58,389 bases of DNA from Thermoanaerobaculia bacterium (lineage in GTDB: Bacteria > Acidobacteriota > Thermoanaerobaculia > UBA5066), in NCBI GenBank assembly GCA_022071945.1, contig JAJVIN010000033.1, positions 1-58,389 on the forward strand, in the 5' to 3' direction. Below are positions 1 through 56,990 of the stretch, piece after piece. The notes under the pieces are model-generated. The model was given only the letters and a program-made list of their open reading frames with translations. It was not told the origin of the DNA and ran no database searches. Made by a program: the position numbers and the translations under genes. Position 1 is the first letter of the stretch; the number at the start of each line of letters is the position of its first letter.

Positions 1-118
1 CGGGCCCTCAGGCCCGGGAGGGGTCAGCGCCCCCTCCTTCGATTGGCCCGCTCCTTCCGGCTGACCCCCGTGGACCCCTCCGGCGCTCACGCGCCACCTC
101 CCCTTCGCAAGGGGAGGC
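1..118 (-). repeat. Composite intergenic palindromic repeat, copy A (cut by window edge)
   Basis: This is a reverse-strand copy of the element also seen at 5592-5732, 8490-8632 and 22722-22864. One boundary palindrome, CTCCCCTTCGCAAGGGGAG, lies at about 98-116. The inner palindrome GGGCCTGAGGGCCC, read on the minus strand, is at the window start. Between them are the conserved blocks GCGCCGGAGGGGTCCACGG and GCGCTGACCCCTCCCGGGCC. The second boundary palindrome would lie outside the window. The rest of the gap up to base 229 shows no gene. Confidence 0.8.
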
Positions 119-5591: not shown

Positions 5592-5732
5592 GCCTCCCCT
5601 TGCGAAGGGGAGGCGACGCGAAGCGGCGGAGGGGTCCACGGGTGGATCAGAAAGGAAAGCTGGTTGTGATTGGGGACTGGCGCGGACCCCACCCGGGCCT
5701 GACGGCCCGGCCTCCCCTTCGTAAGGGGAGGC
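5592..5732 (+). repeat. Composite intergenic palindromic repeat, copy B
   Basis: The element is bounded by GCCTCCCCTTGCGAAGGGGAG at 5592-5612 and the near-identical palindrome GCCTCCCCTTCGTAAGGGGAG at 5710-5730. Inside are the conserved GGCGGAGGGGTCCACGG block and GGGCCTGACGGCCC. The middle (about 5640-5690) is the most diverged of the four copies. It fills most of the 295-bp gap between the membrane protein and dps, and nothing else is seen there. Confidence 0.85.
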
Positions 5733-5777
5733 GAGGCCAGGCGGCGGGAGTCGAACTCGGGTGTGTCCCCCGCGGCC

Positions 5778-6254
5778 TCACTCCGAGAGCGAGGCGCGGA
5801 GGAACCAGCCGTTCTTCTCGAATTCGGTGATGACGCCGGTGAAGAGGTCGACGCTGTCGGTGTCTCCCAGTTTCTCGGCGGCCGAACGCGACTGCCGAAG
5901 GCCCTCGAGGTAGACGTCGATGCGGTCCGCCAGGAGCCTGACGTGCTCCATGTCGCGCGTCGTTTCCTGCGGGTACTCCGCCAGGCGGGACGTCTTCGCC
6001 ACGTGCCGCGCCGTCCCGTAGGCCTTCGCCCCGAGCGTGACCGCCCTTTCGGCGACGGCGTCGTTGAAGTTCGCGAGAGAAACCGCGAATGTCTCGAAGA
6101 GCGGATGCAGCGACGAGAACTGGGGACCCTTGATGTTCCAGTGCGCGACCTTGATCTGGCTGAAAAGGTCGAGCCCATCGGCCAGCCGGGCATTCAGGGC
6201 CTCGGCAACGGACTGACGGGTCTCCTCGGAAAGATGACTCGGACTTCTGTACAT
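5778..6254 (-). CDS. dps: Dps-family ferritin-like DNA-protection protein
   Basis: This 158-residue protein stores iron by oxidising Fe(II) with peroxide and so protects DNA. The ferroxidase signature is complete: His38 (KVAHWNIKGP), His50, Asp65 and Glu69, with the 12/15/4 spacing of characterised Dps proteins. The ATG at 6252-6254 is preceded by AGGGGG and is chosen over an upstream frame extension that overlaps ahpD. It lies 10 bp downstream of ahpD and probably shares the ahpC-ahpD transcript, which fits OxyR control of all three. Confidence 0.93.
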   Translation of the reverse strand: MYRSPSHLSEETRQSVAEALNARLADGLDLFSQIKVAHWNIKGPQFSSLHPLFETFAVSLANFNDAVAERAVTLGAKAYGTARHVAKTSRLAEYPQETTRDMEHVRLLADRIDVYLEGLRQSRSAAEKLGDTDSVDLFTGVITEFEKNGWFLRASLSE

Positions 6255-6264
6255 GAATTTCCCC

Positions 6265-6816
6265 CTAGCTCGCGACTCCGGCTGGCGACACGGCGGCGTG
6301 GAGCTCCAAAGAGACCGCCGCCGCGTGGACCGTGGCCGAGACGCGAATGGCATCGTGGATCTGATCCTCGGTCAGGCCGCCCGCGAGAACGACCTCTTCG
6401 TGAGCCTTCACACACGCCTCACAGCCGGTGATCGCGCTCGCCGCCAGAGAGAAGAGCTCGAAATCGGTCTTGTTCGTCGCCGGCTTGGCGAGCCGCTGCA
6501 TCCGCAGCCGCGCGGGCTTCTCGGAGTACGAGGGCTTGCCGATCATGTGCCGGAACCTGTAATAGATGTTGTTCATCCCCATCAGGGAGGCCGCGGCCAG
6601 GGCGTCGTCGACGATGGCTTCCCCCGCCTCCCGCCGCGCCTCGCTCAGAACCGCGGAGAGCAATTCGGGGTTGCGGGACGCCGCGGCCGAAGCCACGGCG
6701 ACCCCCCAGCGCTGAGCGGGCGACAGCGAGGTCGAGGACGGAACCGTCTGGAGATTCAGCTTGATGTCCCGGGCAAAATCCGGGAGAGAGTTCCTGAGTT
6801 CCTCGAGCGTCGCCAT
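6265..6816 (-). CDS. ahpD: Alkyl hydroperoxidase AhpD
   Basis: This 183-residue cytoplasmic protein reduces AhpC, linking it to the lipoyl/NADH electron source in the mycobacterial scheme. The CxxC motif is Cys132-Glu-Ala-Cys135, with His139 after it and Glu120 before it. These match the catalytic Glu/Cys/Cys/His set of M. tuberculosis AhpD. The ATG at 6814-6816 lies just beyond the ahpC stop; an alternative GTG at 6820-6822 would overlap that stop by 3 bp. Either way ahpC and ahpD are translationally coupled. AhpD paired with a three-Cys AhpC suggests an AhpF-independent system. Confidence 0.94.
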   Translation of the reverse strand: MATLEELRNSLPDFARDIKLNLQTVPSSTSLSPAQRWGVAVASAAASRNPELLSAVLSEARREAGEAIVDDALAAASLMGMNNIYYRFRHMIGKPSYSEKPARLRMQRLAKPATNKTDFELFSLAASAITGCEACVKAHEEVVLAGGLTEDQIHDAIRVSATVHAAAVSLELHAAVSPAGVAS

Positions 6817-7480: not shown

Positions 7481-8398
7481 ATGGCATCTCCGCCACCGTT
7501 CACGCTTCGTCAGCTTCAGTACTTCATCGCCGTGGCCGAGCTGAAGAGCTTTCGCCGGGCGGCGGAAAGCTGCAATGTCTCCCAGCCCTCCCTGAGTGCC
7601 CAGATCGCGGAGCTGGAGAGAGGTCTGGGCGTGTCCCTGTTCGAGCGGAACACGAGGCGAGTGATTTCGACTCCGGCAGCGGAGACGCTGATTCCCCGGG
7701 CACGGGCGGTCCTGCTCGCCGCGGGGGACCTGAAAGAGACGGCGAGGCGTTTCGTCGACCCCTATTCCGGAACGTTGCGGATCGGGGTCATTCCGACGAT
7801 CGGGCCGTACCTGCTGCCTCGCATCGTCCCGAGGCTGACGGAGGTGTATCCGGCCCTCGGGTTTCTCTGGGTCGAGGAGAAGACCGAAGTCCTGGTGAGG
7901 AGGATCGCGAGAGGGGAACTCGACGGGGCGATCCTGGCGCTGGTGGCGGACCTCGAGGGGCTCGAGGTCGAGGTGCTTTCGGAAGACGAGTTCGTCCTGG
8001 CCCTTCCGGCAACTCACCGCCTGGCGGCCGGAACACAGCCGGTCGGGCTGGACGATCTTTCAGGCGAGCGGATCCTGCTCCTGGATGAAGGGCATTGCTT
8101 TCGCGATCAGGCCCTGGCGTTTTGCGGCCGGGCACGGATCGAAGAACTGGGGTTCAGGGCGACAAGCCTCTCGACCCTCGTTCAGATGGTCTCGGCGGGG
8201 TCGGGGATCACGCTCCTGCCGAAGCTGGCGGTCTCGACCGAGACCGCGCGATCCGGGCTCGCCATTCGCGAGTTCGACCCGCCTCGACCGGCCCGCACCG
8301 TGGTCCTGGCGTGGCGGCGAAAGGCGGCCCTGGAGCCCGCGCTCCGGGGAATCGCAGGGACGATTCGTGCGAGGGCGCTCGTGGAGGACGGGTTCTGA
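7481..8398 (+). CDS. oxyR: Hydrogen-peroxide sensor and LysR-type regulator OxyR
   Basis: This 305-residue regulator has a winged helix-turn-helix at residues 6-65 (LRQLQYFIAVAE..SFRRAAE) and a LysR substrate-binding domain thereafter. The redox pair Cys206 and Cys215 lies in the conserved DEGHCFRDQALAFC context with the nine-residue spacing of E. coli Cys199/Cys208, so it should sense peroxide by disulfide formation. It is divergent from ahpC-ahpD-dps, its expected targets. No good Shine-Dalgarno sequence precedes the ATG. The OxyR half-site occupies that place, so translation may be leaderless or weak. Confidence 0.93.
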   Translation: MASPPPFTLRQLQYFIAVAELKSFRRAAESCNVSQPSLSAQIAELERGLGVSLFERNTRRVISTPAAETLIPRARAVLLAAGDLKETARRFVDPYSGTLRIGVIPTIGPYLLPRIVPRLTEVYPALGFLWVEEKTEVLVRRIARGELDGAILALVADLEGLEVEVLSEDEFVLALPATHRLAAGTQPVGLDDLSGERILLLDEGHCFRDQALAFCGRARIEELGFRATSLSTLVQMVSAGSGITLLPKLAVSTETARSGLAIREFDPPRPARTVVLAWRRKAALEPALRGIAGTIRARALVEDGF

Positions 8399-8432: not shown

Positions 8433-8632
8433 CCCTCTCCCTCAGGGAGAAAGCCTGGAGTCTCTACATTTTGGTGTCGCCAGGTCCGTGCCTCCCCTTA
8501 CGAAGGGGAGGCAGGCGCGAGAGCGCCGGAGGGGTCCGCGGAGGTACCTCGGATGGCTCGGGCCGACCAACAAGAACCGGCGCTGACCCCTCCCGGGCCT
8601 GACGGCCCGGCCTCCCCTTCGTAAGGGGAGGC
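8433..8632 (+). repeat. Composite intergenic palindromic repeat, copy C (long form)
   Basis: The 143-bp core (8490-8632) is bounded by two copies of the GCCTCCCCTT/AAGGGGAGGC palindrome. A left extension at 8433-8489 includes a CTCCCTCAGGGAG hairpin and CTGGAGTCTCTACATTTTGG. The long form is nearly identical to copy D at 22664-22864 over all 200 bp. It occupies most of the 8399-8737 gap between oxyR and the DinB-like gene; the remaining 100 bp has a small CCCCGGCTGCCCGGGG hairpin and no gene. Confidence 0.9.
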
Positions 8633-8737: not shown

Positions 8738-9349
8738 ATGAAACGGAACTGGACAGCTCTCGCTCTGACCCTTCTCGCCGCGCCTCTTTTCGCCCAGGCC
8801 CCCGCGGCCGCTCAGGCGGCCCCCGCCGCGGCGGCGCCCGCGCTGGGACCCGCGATGACGGGTCTGAAGATGCCCTACATGCGCATCAAGGACATCCTCG
8901 TCCGCGCCGCCGAGAAGATGCCGGAGGAGAGCTACGGCTTCAAGCCGAGCCCCGAGGTCAAGACGTTTGGCGAGTTCGTGGGCCACGTCGCCGATGCCAG
9001 CGCCATGATTTGCGGCATGGCCCTCGGTGAGGACGCCAAGCCGGGGGACAACGAGAAGACCAAGACGGCAAAGGCTGATCTCGTCAAGGCGCTGAAGGAC
9101 TCCTACGGCGTCTGCGACAAGGCGTTTGCGCAGTCCGATGCGGAACTCGCCAAGCCGCTGAAGATCTTCGGAATGGAGACGAACCGGTTCGCCGCCATCG
9201 GTCTCGCGCTCGGTCACAACTGGGAGCACTACGGCAACATGGTGACGTACATGCGGATTCGGGGAATCGTGCCCCCGTCGAGCGAGCCGCGTCCCGCCGC
9301 GCCGCCGGCGGCGAGCCCGGCCGCCGCTCCGGCGGCCCCCAAGAAGTAG
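8738..9349 (+). CDS. Secreted DinB-like four-helix protein
   Basis: This 203-residue protein has a cleavable Sec signal (residues 1-19, ending LFAQA) and an Ala/Pro linker. A DinB/YfiT-like helical bundle (about 40-175) contains His residues in FGEFVGHVADAS and LGHNWEHYGNM that fit the metal-binding triad of the superfamily. The tail is Pro/Ala-rich. DinB-like proteins include thiol transferases and many of unknown function, so the activity is not predicted. AAGGAG lies 9 bases before the ATG. Confidence 0.8.
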   Translation: MKRNWTALALTLLAAPLFAQAPAAAQAAPAAAAPALGPAMTGLKMPYMRIKDILVRAAEKMPEESYGFKPSPEVKTFGEFVGHVADASAMICGMALGEDAKPGDNEKTKTAKADLVKALKDSYGVCDKAFAQSDAELAKPLKIFGMETNRFAAIGLALGHNWEHYGNMVTYMRIRGIVPPSSEPRPAAPPAASPAAAPAAPKK

Positions 9350-21681: not shown

Positions 21682-22656
21682 ATGCTTCCGAACTTCGCCT
21701 ACGTCCGTCCGTCCACCCTCGTTGACGCGGTCAAGGAACTCGCCAAGCCGGGGGCCGCGGCCCACGCCGGGGGAACCGATCTCATCGGCTGCCTGAGGGA
21801 CGGGGTCTTCGACACGAAGTCCGTCGTCAGCCTGACGGCCCTGAAGGAACTCCATGGGGTGTCGGCCACGCCTGACGGCGGTCTGCGGATCGGGGCCCTC
21901 ACGACACTCGCCGAGATCGCCCGGCATCCCGAAATCGCGAAGCTCTACCCGGCCCTCGCACAGGGGGCCGCCTCGGCGGCGAGTCCACAGTTGCGCAACC
22001 AGGGAACACTGGGAGGGAACATCTGTCAGCGGCCGCGTTGCTGGTACTTCCGCGGCGACTTCGACTGCGCGCGAAAGAACGGGGAGTTCTGCTACGCGGA
22101 GAACGGCGAGAACCGTTACCACGCCATCTTCGGCGGAGAGACGTGCCACATCGTCCACCCCTCCGACACGGCTCCGGCCCTCGTCGCGCTGGAAGCCGTC
22201 GCGACGGTCGCGGGGCCCAACGGCAAGAGGAAAGTCCCCCTCGGGAAGTTCTTCGTCCTGCCCGCCGTCGACCACAAGCGGGAGAACGTGCTCGCGAAAG
22301 GAGAGATCCTGACGGAGGTCGTCTTGCCGAAAGCCCCAGAGGGCGCCAGGGGCGGCTACCGGAAGATGCGGGTGCGCGGGGTCTGGGACTTCGCCCTCGC
22401 CGGGCTGGCGTACTCCGTCGTCGTCAAGGGCGGCAAGGTCGAGAGGGCCAGGCTCGTTCTCTCGGGGGTCGCGCCTATCCCATGGCGCGTAGCCGAGGCG
22501 GAGAAGGTCCTCACCGGCAAGGCTCTGGATGCCGCGACCGTGAAGGCCGCCGTGGAAGCGGCCGTGGCCGGGGCAAAACCTCTCGCCGAGAACGCTTACA
22601 AGATCGATCTCGTCCGGGCCGTGGTGGAGGAAGTGCTGACGGCGATCCCGAAGTGA
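21682..22656 (+). CDS. PaoB-like FAD subunit with probable 4Fe-4S cluster
   Basis: This 324-residue CO-dehydrogenase/xanthine-oxidase FAD subunit has the flavin loops AGGTDLIG and TLGGN. An insertion with Cys115, 120, 129 and 137 (NICQRPRC through GEFCY), plus Cys155, corresponds to the 4Fe-4S insertion of PaoB/YagS. It completes the electron chain from Mo through Fe-S to FAD. It is third in the operon, and composite repeat copy D follows directly after the stop. The E. coli order is small-FAD-Mo, so the last two genes are swapped here. Confidence 0.92.
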   Translation: MLPNFAYVRPSTLVDAVKELAKPGAAAHAGGTDLIGCLRDGVFDTKSVVSLTALKELHGVSATPDGGLRIGALTTLAEIARHPEIAKLYPALAQGAASAASPQLRNQGTLGGNICQRPRCWYFRGDFDCARKNGEFCYAENGENRYHAIFGGETCHIVHPSDTAPALVALEAVATVAGPNGKRKVPLGKFFVLPAVDHKRENVLAKGEILTEVVLPKAPEGARGGYRKMRVRGVWDFALAGLAYSVVVKGGKVERARLVLSGVAPIPWRVAEAEKVLTGKALDAATVKAAVEAAVAGAKPLAENAYKIDLVRAVVEEVLTAIPK

Positions 22657-22663
22657 CGTGCCC

Positions 22664-22864
22664 CCTTCTCCGTCAGGGAGAGGGGCCTGGAGTTTCTACA
22701 TTTGGGTGTCGGTCGGTCCGTGCCTCCCCTCACGAAGGGGAGGCAGGCGCGTGAGCGCCGGAGGGGTCCACGGGGGTACCTCGGATGGCGCGGGCCGGCC
22801 AACAAGAACCGGCGCTGACCCCTCCCGGGCCTGAGGGCCCGGCCTCCCCTTCGTAAGGGGAGGC
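22664..22864 (+). repeat. Composite intergenic palindromic repeat, copy D (long form)
   Basis: This is the best preserved copy. The left extension (22664-22721) includes CTGGAGTTTCTACATTTGGG. The core (22722-22864) is bounded by GCCTCCCCTC/GAAGGGGAGGC and GCCTCCCCTT/AAGGGGAGGC, and the inner stem CCGGGCC-TGAG-GGCCCGG lies at about 22826-22843. It sits between the end of the PaoB-like gene and the end of vapC, so it could also serve as a bidirectional 3-prime-end structure. The rest of the gap to 22927 is GC-rich with no gene. Confidence 0.9.
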
Positions 22865-56018: not shown

Positions 56019-56990
56019 ATGAGAAGGGCGAGGGCGTTCTTGCAGGACGGGTCCCAGGCGGGCTTCTATCACTGCCTGTCCCGGGTCGTCGATCGGAGGT
56101 TCATCATGGGGGACCCCGAGAAAGAGACCTTCCGGAGAATTCTCCGCCAGTGCGAGACCTTTTACGGCCTGAGGGTTTTGACCTACTGCATCATGTCGAA
56201 CCATTTCCACCTGCTGGTGCTGGTTCCGGAGCCGAAGGAACTCGATGAAGGTGAAATCCTCGAGAGGGTTGCCGCACTCTACTCGCCGAAGTTCGTGGCA
56301 GGCCTTCGAAGCGACCTCGACGCCTTCCGGCAGAGAGGCCTGGAAGACTCCGCGCGGGACCTTCTCGCTTCGTTCACCCGAAGGATGTGGAATCTCAGCA
56401 ACTTCATGAAGTCGCTCAAGCAGCGCTTCTCGAGCTTCTACAACCGCAATCACGACAGGTCGGGGACTCTGTGGGAAGAGCGCTTCCGCAGCATCCTCGT
56501 CGAGGGCGAAGACCGCGCCCTCCTCACGATGGCCCTCTACATCGACCTGAATCCGATCCGTGCAGGAATCGTCACCGATCCCGCCGAGTACCGCTTCTGC
56601 GGCTACGGAGAAGCCGTTGGGGGCGGCGAAGCCGCGCGGGAAGGTCTCCGGAGCCTCGTCTCATGGCGGGTGGGATCGTGGAAGACCGTGCAGGCGGAAT
56701 ACCGGCGACTCCTGTACTCAACCGGGGAAGAGACCACGGTTCGACGGGGATTCACGAGGGAGGAAGCCGCCGCCGTGGAGGCTCGAGAAGGTCACCTGCC
56801 TGCTGGCGCGATTCTTCGTCACCGCATCCGCCACTTCTCGGAGGGCGTGATCCTGGGGAGCCGCTCGTTCATCGACGGATGGCTGCAAAGGAATCGCTGG
56901 CGATTCGGCGAGCGCTCGATCTCCAGCGGGTCGGACCGGCGCCTCCCGGATCTCGCCAGACTGGGGCTCTTGCGAGCCGCGCCAGCTTGA
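56019..56990 (+). CDS. REP-associated tyrosine transposase (RAYT, Y1/HUH family)
   Basis: This 323-residue protein has the IS200-type Y1 core: an HUH motif His62-Phe-His64 in SNHFHLLVLV and a probable nucleophile Tyr141 in FSSFYNRNHDRSG. The typical GTLWEERFRS and ALYIDLNPIRAGIV motifs follow. The C-terminal 90 residues form the extra domain often seen in single-copy RAYTs. Such enzymes are usually not within mobile elements but act on REP hairpins scattered in the genome. No terminal repeats are found around it. The ATG is taken from the start of the conserved N-terminus. Confidence 0.88.
   Translation: MRRARAFLQDGSQAGFYHCLSRVVDRRFIMGDPEKETFRRILRQCETFYGLRVLTYCIMSNHFHLLVLVPEPKELDEGEILERVAALYSPKFVAGLRSDLDAFRQRGLEDSARDLLASFTRRMWNLSNFMKSLKQRFSSFYNRNHDRSGTLWEERFRSILVEGEDRALLTMALYIDLNPIRAGIVTDPAEYRFCGYGEAVGGGEAAREGLRSLVSWRVGSWKTVQAEYRRLLYSTGEETTVRRGFTREEAAAVEAREGHLPAGAILRHRIRHFSEGVILGSRSFIDGWLQRNRWRFGERSISSGSDRRLPDLARLGLLRAAPA

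Follow-up and report, generated by a model that had tools for sequence, protein, structure and literature searches.

The question raised by this locus is what kind of element its intergenic palindromic repeats represent and which enzyme, if any, spreads them. The window is the whole stretch of DNA that was analysed (G000:C38:1-58389; 58,389 bp). The repeats are traced below from their anatomy to a putative nuclease gene family, DUF559, that carries similar repeats on its flanks in many bacteria.

Organization of the window repeats

The initial annotation described a four-copy repeat, and all four copies are present: copy A at 1-118 (minus strand) and, on the plus strand, copy B at 5592-5733, copy C at 8490-8632 and copy D at 22722-22864. 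Copy A is incomplete because the window begins at the first base of contig C38; it matches query positions 58-177 (82% identity). Copy B is a diverged REPIN-like element (78% identity to copy C), while copies C and D are near-identical, as had been proposed (93% identity across 187 nt). The intergenic location of the copies is likewise confirmed. Copy B adjoins the 3' end of a ferritin-like gene (5778-6353, minus strand), copy C lies between a LysR gene that ends at 8398 and a DinB-like gene that begins at 8738, and copy D follows a CO-dehydrogenase flavoprotein gene that ends at 22656.

The window element is best described as one composite unit present twice, in inverted orientation. In each unit, a C-rich palindrome is followed by a small hairpin and then by a third arm, rich in G, which is a mirror image of the palindrome. 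The left unit of copy C has the outer palindrome P1 (GCCTCCCCTTACGAAGGGGAGGC, 8490-8512), followed on its 3' side by the inner hairpin (GGCGCGAGAGCGCC, 8514-8527) and the third arm GGAGGGG (8528-8534), which is the mirror of the R arm GGGGAGG. After a spacer of approximately 50 bp, the right unit has the third arm CCCCTCC (8587-8593), the inner hairpin (CGGGCCTGACGGCCCG, 8594-8609) and the outer palindrome P1' (GCCTCCCCTTCGTAAGGGGAGGC, 8610-8632); all of these features are given on the plus strand. The loop (TTACGAA/TTCGTAA) and the side on which the third arm lies indicate that the units are inverted relative to each other. A single inner stem had been assigned to the element. This assignment is correct for the right unit (CGGGCC-TGAN-GGCCCG) and not for the left, in which the hairpin is GGCGC-GAGA/GTGA-GCGCC.

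A third arm that mirrors the G-rich arm has, judged from its sequence, the geometry of a putative purine-motif intrastrand triplex. The third-arm score is 0.89-1.0 on one side in 7/7 palindromes of copies A-D. For the element as single-stranded DNA, the predicted fold is a single long hairpin that bears side hairpins (-63.4 kcal/mol, z = -9). Copies C and D also belong to a young subfamily that has about 35 nt more in common on the left (TGGAGTTTCTACATTTGGGTGTCGG...GTCCGT in copy C). This extension is conserved at 8453-8489 in copy C and, from the alignment of copies, at 22685-22721 in copy D (both plus strand). By eye, it directly follows a terminator-like hairpin in several copies. Because a strict test was positive in only 3/12, this 5' hairpin is not claimed as a constant feature of the subfamily, despite the visual impression given by many copies.

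Genome-wide distribution

The family is not confined to the four copies in the window. BLAST with copy C as query recovers 118 matches from the 6.17-Mb genome, which contains 95 distinct palindromes when no more than one mismatch is allowed. For the palindrome CTCCCCTTNCGNAGGGGAG, the whole-genome count is 88/96 pattern matches, against 4/4 with a reversed control pattern, and thus well above what chance would give. Sixty-six of the 95 palindromes fall in 33 forward-reverse pairs with a spacing that is mostly 116-120 bp (109-120 bp in 31/33), and the remainder occur alone or in other orders. Contigs C17, C20 and C57 have tandem arrays and C4 has a cluster, and several contigs start or stop within BLAST matches of copy C. 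The genome has undergone a recent burst of near-identical copies. The repeat consists of paired inverted units, is found in many intergenic places, has subfamilies of younger and older age and also occurs as solo units and in arrays; it can therefore be classified as a dispersed, non-autonomous, REPIN-like element, as the initial annotation had suggested.

Whether such an element is moved in the manner of a true REPIN is a separate matter. REPINs and their RAYT (Y1) transposases (PMC3116915, PMC8049555) resemble the window family in having inverted palindromic units with a spacer, an intergenic location and a low-copy nuclease gene with the same ends. This likeness, together with ten Y1_Tnp matches in the genome, one of them in the window, would fit repeats that are moved by a RAYT, with DUF559 being incidental. 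The flanks of the ten Y1_Tnp loci contain no convincing copy of the repeat, however, the best candidate being a weak 24-bp match, and no GTAG or CGTC tag was seen by eye at the hairpin foot in 20 copies aligned with their flanks. The REPIN-like architecture therefore stands, and the strict reading as a RAYT-mobilized REPIN does not. The Y1 gene of the window (56019-56990, plus strand) encodes a 323-aa IS200-like, RAYT-type transposase, and the repeat is absent from its flanks. On several other contigs of the genome, Y1_Tnp matches lie in open frames of 326 aa, which may represent a separate multicopy element.

DUF559 genes adjacent to the repeats

A different partner, missed by the initial annotation, is found outside the window. 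The tandem array at C17 holds an open reading frame of the DUF559 family between repeat copies, and a DUF559 gene at C30 lies 58 bp from another copy; the distances between these two genes and the window repeat family are 58-250 bp. Two further DUF559 genes are associated with different palindromes: that at C4 lies inside an array of CCCCCTCTTTACAAAAGAGGGGG, and that at C44 adjoins a third palindrome, CCCCTTCTCCCGCGAGTGCGGGAGAAGGGG. At C4 (approximately 243.6-244.4 kb), the 225-bp unit of the CCCCCTCTTTACAAAAGAGGGGG array repeats the 3' end of the DUF559 gene.

DUF559 proteins are common and have no assigned function. The DUF559 protein matches PF04480 (E-value: 9e-34; 116 bits against a cut-off of 20.6). 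In the family alignment, D41, E52, H58 and D67 are invariant and E12 and D54 nearly so, a set of residues that would fit a nuclease. An AlphaFold2 model of the protein (mean pLDDT 86.7) is most similar to 3hrl, a DUF559 protein of N. gonorrhoeae (Z 14.9), followed by the homing endonuclease I-Bth0305I (Z 11.1) and Vsr (Z 9.5), with weaker similarity to TnsA and Hjc. A profile search of PDB sequences also recovers I-Bth0305I (3r3p; E-value: 1.7e-4); enterotoxin B-chain matches in the same search were dismissed as chance. The modelled structure thus places DUF559 in the PD-(D/E)XK (EDxHD/Vsr) homing-endonuclease fold, in common with I-Bth0305I (3r3p) and Vsr (1cw0, 1vsr). In its PDB entry, I-Bth0305I is described as a mobile intron protein, and Vsr acts in mismatch repair, whereas DUF559 is here a stand-alone domain of about 105 aa. 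To our knowledge, neither I-Bth0305I nor Vsr is flanked by triplex repeats. The partner of the window family also differs from that of a REPIN, being a predicted PD-(D/E)XK Vsr-fold endonuclease rather than an HUH/Y1 enzyme; the absence of GTAG/CGTC tags and the triplex-type third arm are further differences.

Linkage of DUF559 genes and repeats across phyla

The flanks of DUF559 genes were analysed at 80 loci on GTDB contigs from some two dozen phyla. These loci are the best 80 of 522 relatives of the query alignment, and so the sample favours one branch of DUF559. Among these best 80 relatives, the density of palindromes that have a C-rich 5' arm falls from 5.1/kb in the first 150 bp next to the gene to 1.2/kb at 150-300 bp and approximately 0.13/kb beyond 300 bp, so that they are about 40-fold enriched close to the gene. 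No palindrome of the opposite (G-rich) polarity lies within 600 bp of the gene at the 80 loci. The inverted-repeat score between the upstream and downstream flanks exceeds the 95% level of the control in 69% of 74 of these loci. The terminal inverted repeats reach about 60 bp, with long ones in Prevotella, Caulobacter, cyanobacteria, Acidobacteria and others. Where units are found on both sides (47 loci of this best-80 sample), they face inward at 26, and the resulting element measures 428-567 bp (median 488). No recognizable units are found by a strict test at 14/77 DUF559 loci, or at L203, L217 and L218.

In the phylum of the window, such palindromes were present in the flanks of 16/19 full-size DUF559 loci, as against 0/10 weaker partial-domain matches, six of which lie in reading frames of more than 900 aa. 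Two loci from other bacteria are given as individual observations. In Sphingomonas parapaucimobilis, a DUF559 gene that is bordered on either side by inverted C-rich palindromes separates sufB from sufC (L159:2962-3372). In N. gonorrhoeae, the DUF559 gene, apparently NGO0050 (PDB 3hrl), lies between repeats of the CCCTCTCCCTGTGGGAGAG type (L157:2700-3600).

The same ends flank the DUF559 gene in more than 20 bacterial phyla, and DUF559 is for this reason the likely parent that spreads the repeats. The pairs in the window are oriented inward, as are the units at DUF559 elements. As to the MITE-like character raised initially, the repeats have the inverted ends and inward orientation of the DUF559 element; no target-site duplication is obvious in the flanks of 20 aligned copies. 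The best DNA matches in relatives, all from outside the genus, are approximately 75-79% identical, too distant for empty sites to be read at intergenic junctions.

Co-variation and co-occurrence of DUF559 and repeats

The arms of the units co-vary. In a mirror test, used in place of a rigid tail-motif test that gave a weaker picture, the third arm scores 0.961 against its own palindrome and 0.817 against permuted palindromes of other loci (z = 19). The upstream and downstream palindromes belong to the same class in 25/46 loci (10.5 by permutation). Mapped on the DUF559 tree, palindrome class needs 15 changes, compared with a mean of 25.4 and a minimum of 20 after shuffling. Host phylum needs 31 changes on the same tree; because class tracks the tree nonetheless, descent within the host phylum does not by itself account for the pairing.

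Repeat number also follows DUF559. Among 247 genomes of the phylum, a strong DUF559 match is present in 20. Repeat-rich genomes, defined as those with at least nine palindromes of class CCTCCCC or CCCCTCC (a threshold picked after the counts were known), number 13, and 13/13 have strong DUF559 (p = 5e-17). Because the threshold is post hoc and most of the 13 genomes belong to one family (f32), the genus-level figure is safer: 6/6 repeat-rich genera have DUF559 (p = 2e-7). Within one genus (g62), eight DUF559 genomes have 10-89 palindromes each, while G214, which lacks DUF559, has two and G249, with a weak partial match, has six. Y1 (RAYT-like) transposases are found in 159/247 genomes; 139 of these lack strong DUF559, and 0/139 are repeat-rich. 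Mobilization of the window family by a RAYT is thus highly improbable.

The same counts bear on a second alternative, in which DUF559 would parasitize the repeats: as a free-standing homing endonuclease, it would insert itself in or beside triplex repeats, while these spread by some other means such as replication slippage or another transposase. The homing-endonuclease fold is consistent with such behaviour. Some mobile elements, for example ISPpu9, are reported to insert into REPs (PMC8450116), and in one S. meliloti strain homology breaks inside the palindrome, as would be expected of an inserted element. None of the 247 genomes is repeat-rich without DUF559, however, and the two g62 genomes with no or partial DUF559 are repeat-poor. 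Homing into pre-existing repeats leaves a copy number that tracks DUF559 unexplained, and this alternative is considered unlikely. A functional partnership between DUF559 and the repeats is very probable.

Relationship to BoxC/PIT/TM repeats

Triplex repeats of the BoxC type were already known in the 1990s, but no carrier had been assigned to them. The BoxC/PIT/TM_ECO repeats resemble the window units in having a C-rich arm, a G-rich arm and a mirrored G-rich third arm, and in being intergenic, present in tens of copies, sometimes in inverted pairs, and found in many bacteria. The window units differ from them in that a further hairpin separates the R arm from the third arm, and in their regular pairing at 116-120 bp. 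Holder et al. (2015, PMC4666352) recorded TM motifs in over 260 genomes, showed triplex formation in vitro and established that the motifs mark loci that are unstable. The same study found no mobility genes near the motifs and considered the mechanism of instability unclear; DUF559 is identified here as the partner of window-type repeats. The second loop was limited to 1-6 nt in the published TM search (PMC4666352). The second loop of the window units is a hairpin of approximately 15 nt, and that search would therefore probably miss them. From their sequence, the window units are putative triplex-type repeats of BoxC/PIT/TM geometry that lie outside strict TM membership. The suggestion that the repeat is new must be qualified in this light. 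It has no Rfam match at the gathering score (the window gives only a tRNA), but the three-arm geometry of its unit is that of BoxC/PIT/TM.

In E. coli, ycjD belongs to the DUF559 family and has a BoxC-type unit downstream; only one side of ycjD has a clear unit. A partial copy of the ycjD 3' end lies between ycjD and the BoxC-type repeat (L161:2788-2930), an arrangement that resembles the C4 array. One E. coli strain has 27 related matches. Matches are present in 5,375/5,426 genomes at a median of 16 places per genome, and the second loops of these copies (TTA and CCG) are those given for TM_ECO types A and B. E. coli K-12 carries ycjD and roughly 23 BoxC copies.

Repeat sites differ between strains. 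At emrD-tisB (L189-L192), some strains have a BoxC pair, in place of which other strains have a different REP-like sequence; these alleles look as if one repeat had replaced the other. At alx-sstT, the pair has collapsed to a single palindrome in some strains, and at phnP-yjdP both collapsed and absent states occur. No clean insertion was found at these three loci, only polymorphism in which the change could have run in either direction. On pSymB of S. meliloti, alternative or interrupted alleles were found and an empty site was not. The allelic differences in the two species show that the sites are dynamic, without showing the origin of the copies.

The collapsed alleles, which fit processing by a nuclease, and the instability of TM loci in E. 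coli (PMC4666352) could also be explained if the repeats were structures of use to the host (in replication pausing, nucleoid organization or termination) and DUF559 were a host repair nuclease, the linkage reflecting joint function. A DUF559 protein of Caulobacter, VsrA (CCNA_02930), causes a DNA damage response in cells that lack a cytosine methyltransferase; it is DNA-damage induced, tied to cytosine methylation and proposed to be a mismatch-repair enzyme, in a study whose scope did not extend to repeats (PMC12907096). Several features argue against a host function. The repeats are scattered within the phylum, the window genome shows a recent burst of near-identical copies, inverted ends enclose the gene at a fixed size, and one DUF559 gene is located between sufB and sufC; these features look like those of a selfish element. 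In addition, E. coli PIT elements showed no promoter or terminator activity in earlier work, as reported in PMC4666352. This explanation is therefore regarded as improbable, somewhat more so than parasitism of the repeats by DUF559.

Proposed model

The proposed model for the DUF559 element is as follows. The autonomous form, of about 0.45-0.55 kb, consists of a unit, a DUF559 gene and an inverted unit, and the window repeats are likely to be its gene-less derivatives. The DUF559 protein would recognize its cognate unit in hairpin, cruciform or triplex form and would nick or cut either there or at target sites. The element, or a gene-less derivative, may then be copied into a new intergenic site by break repair or template switching, with gene-less pairs, solo units and tandem arrays arising as by-products. 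That DUF559 mobilizes the repeats, which we infer from the linkage and co-occurrence, is probable, if less so than the partnership itself. Neither a clean empty site nor a target duplication was found in the flanks of 20 copies or among the E. coli and S. meliloti alleles.

The broader claim, for which belief and doubt are evenly balanced, is that DUF559 and its triplex-forming ends constitute an unrecognized bacterial mobile element of approximately 0.49 kb, with a homing-type PD-(D/E)XK nuclease as its mover, and that BoxC/TM-type repeats in more than 20 phyla, including those of E. coli, derive from this element. No description of the DUF559-repeat pairing was found in literature naming DUF559, ycjD or COG2852, a search that took in few subscription journals and preprints, and the partnership appears to be undescribed so far.

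Significance

The window repeat has a known structural geometry with a longer second loop and REPIN-like pairing; it is not a RAYT REPIN. Palindromic-pair repeats should thus not be assigned to RAYTs from their shape alone, and DUF559 would represent a second route to REPIN-like repeats through an unrelated enzyme. BoxC-type repeats, which hundreds of genomes contain and which are hot spots of genomic change, are now tied to DUF559, and this partnership offers a testable origin for the BoxC/TM class. The link makes both the gene and the repeats accessible to experiment in E. coli K-12. If the model is correct, DUF559 elements would be among the smallest autonomous mobile elements, with a mover that is not a classical transposase.
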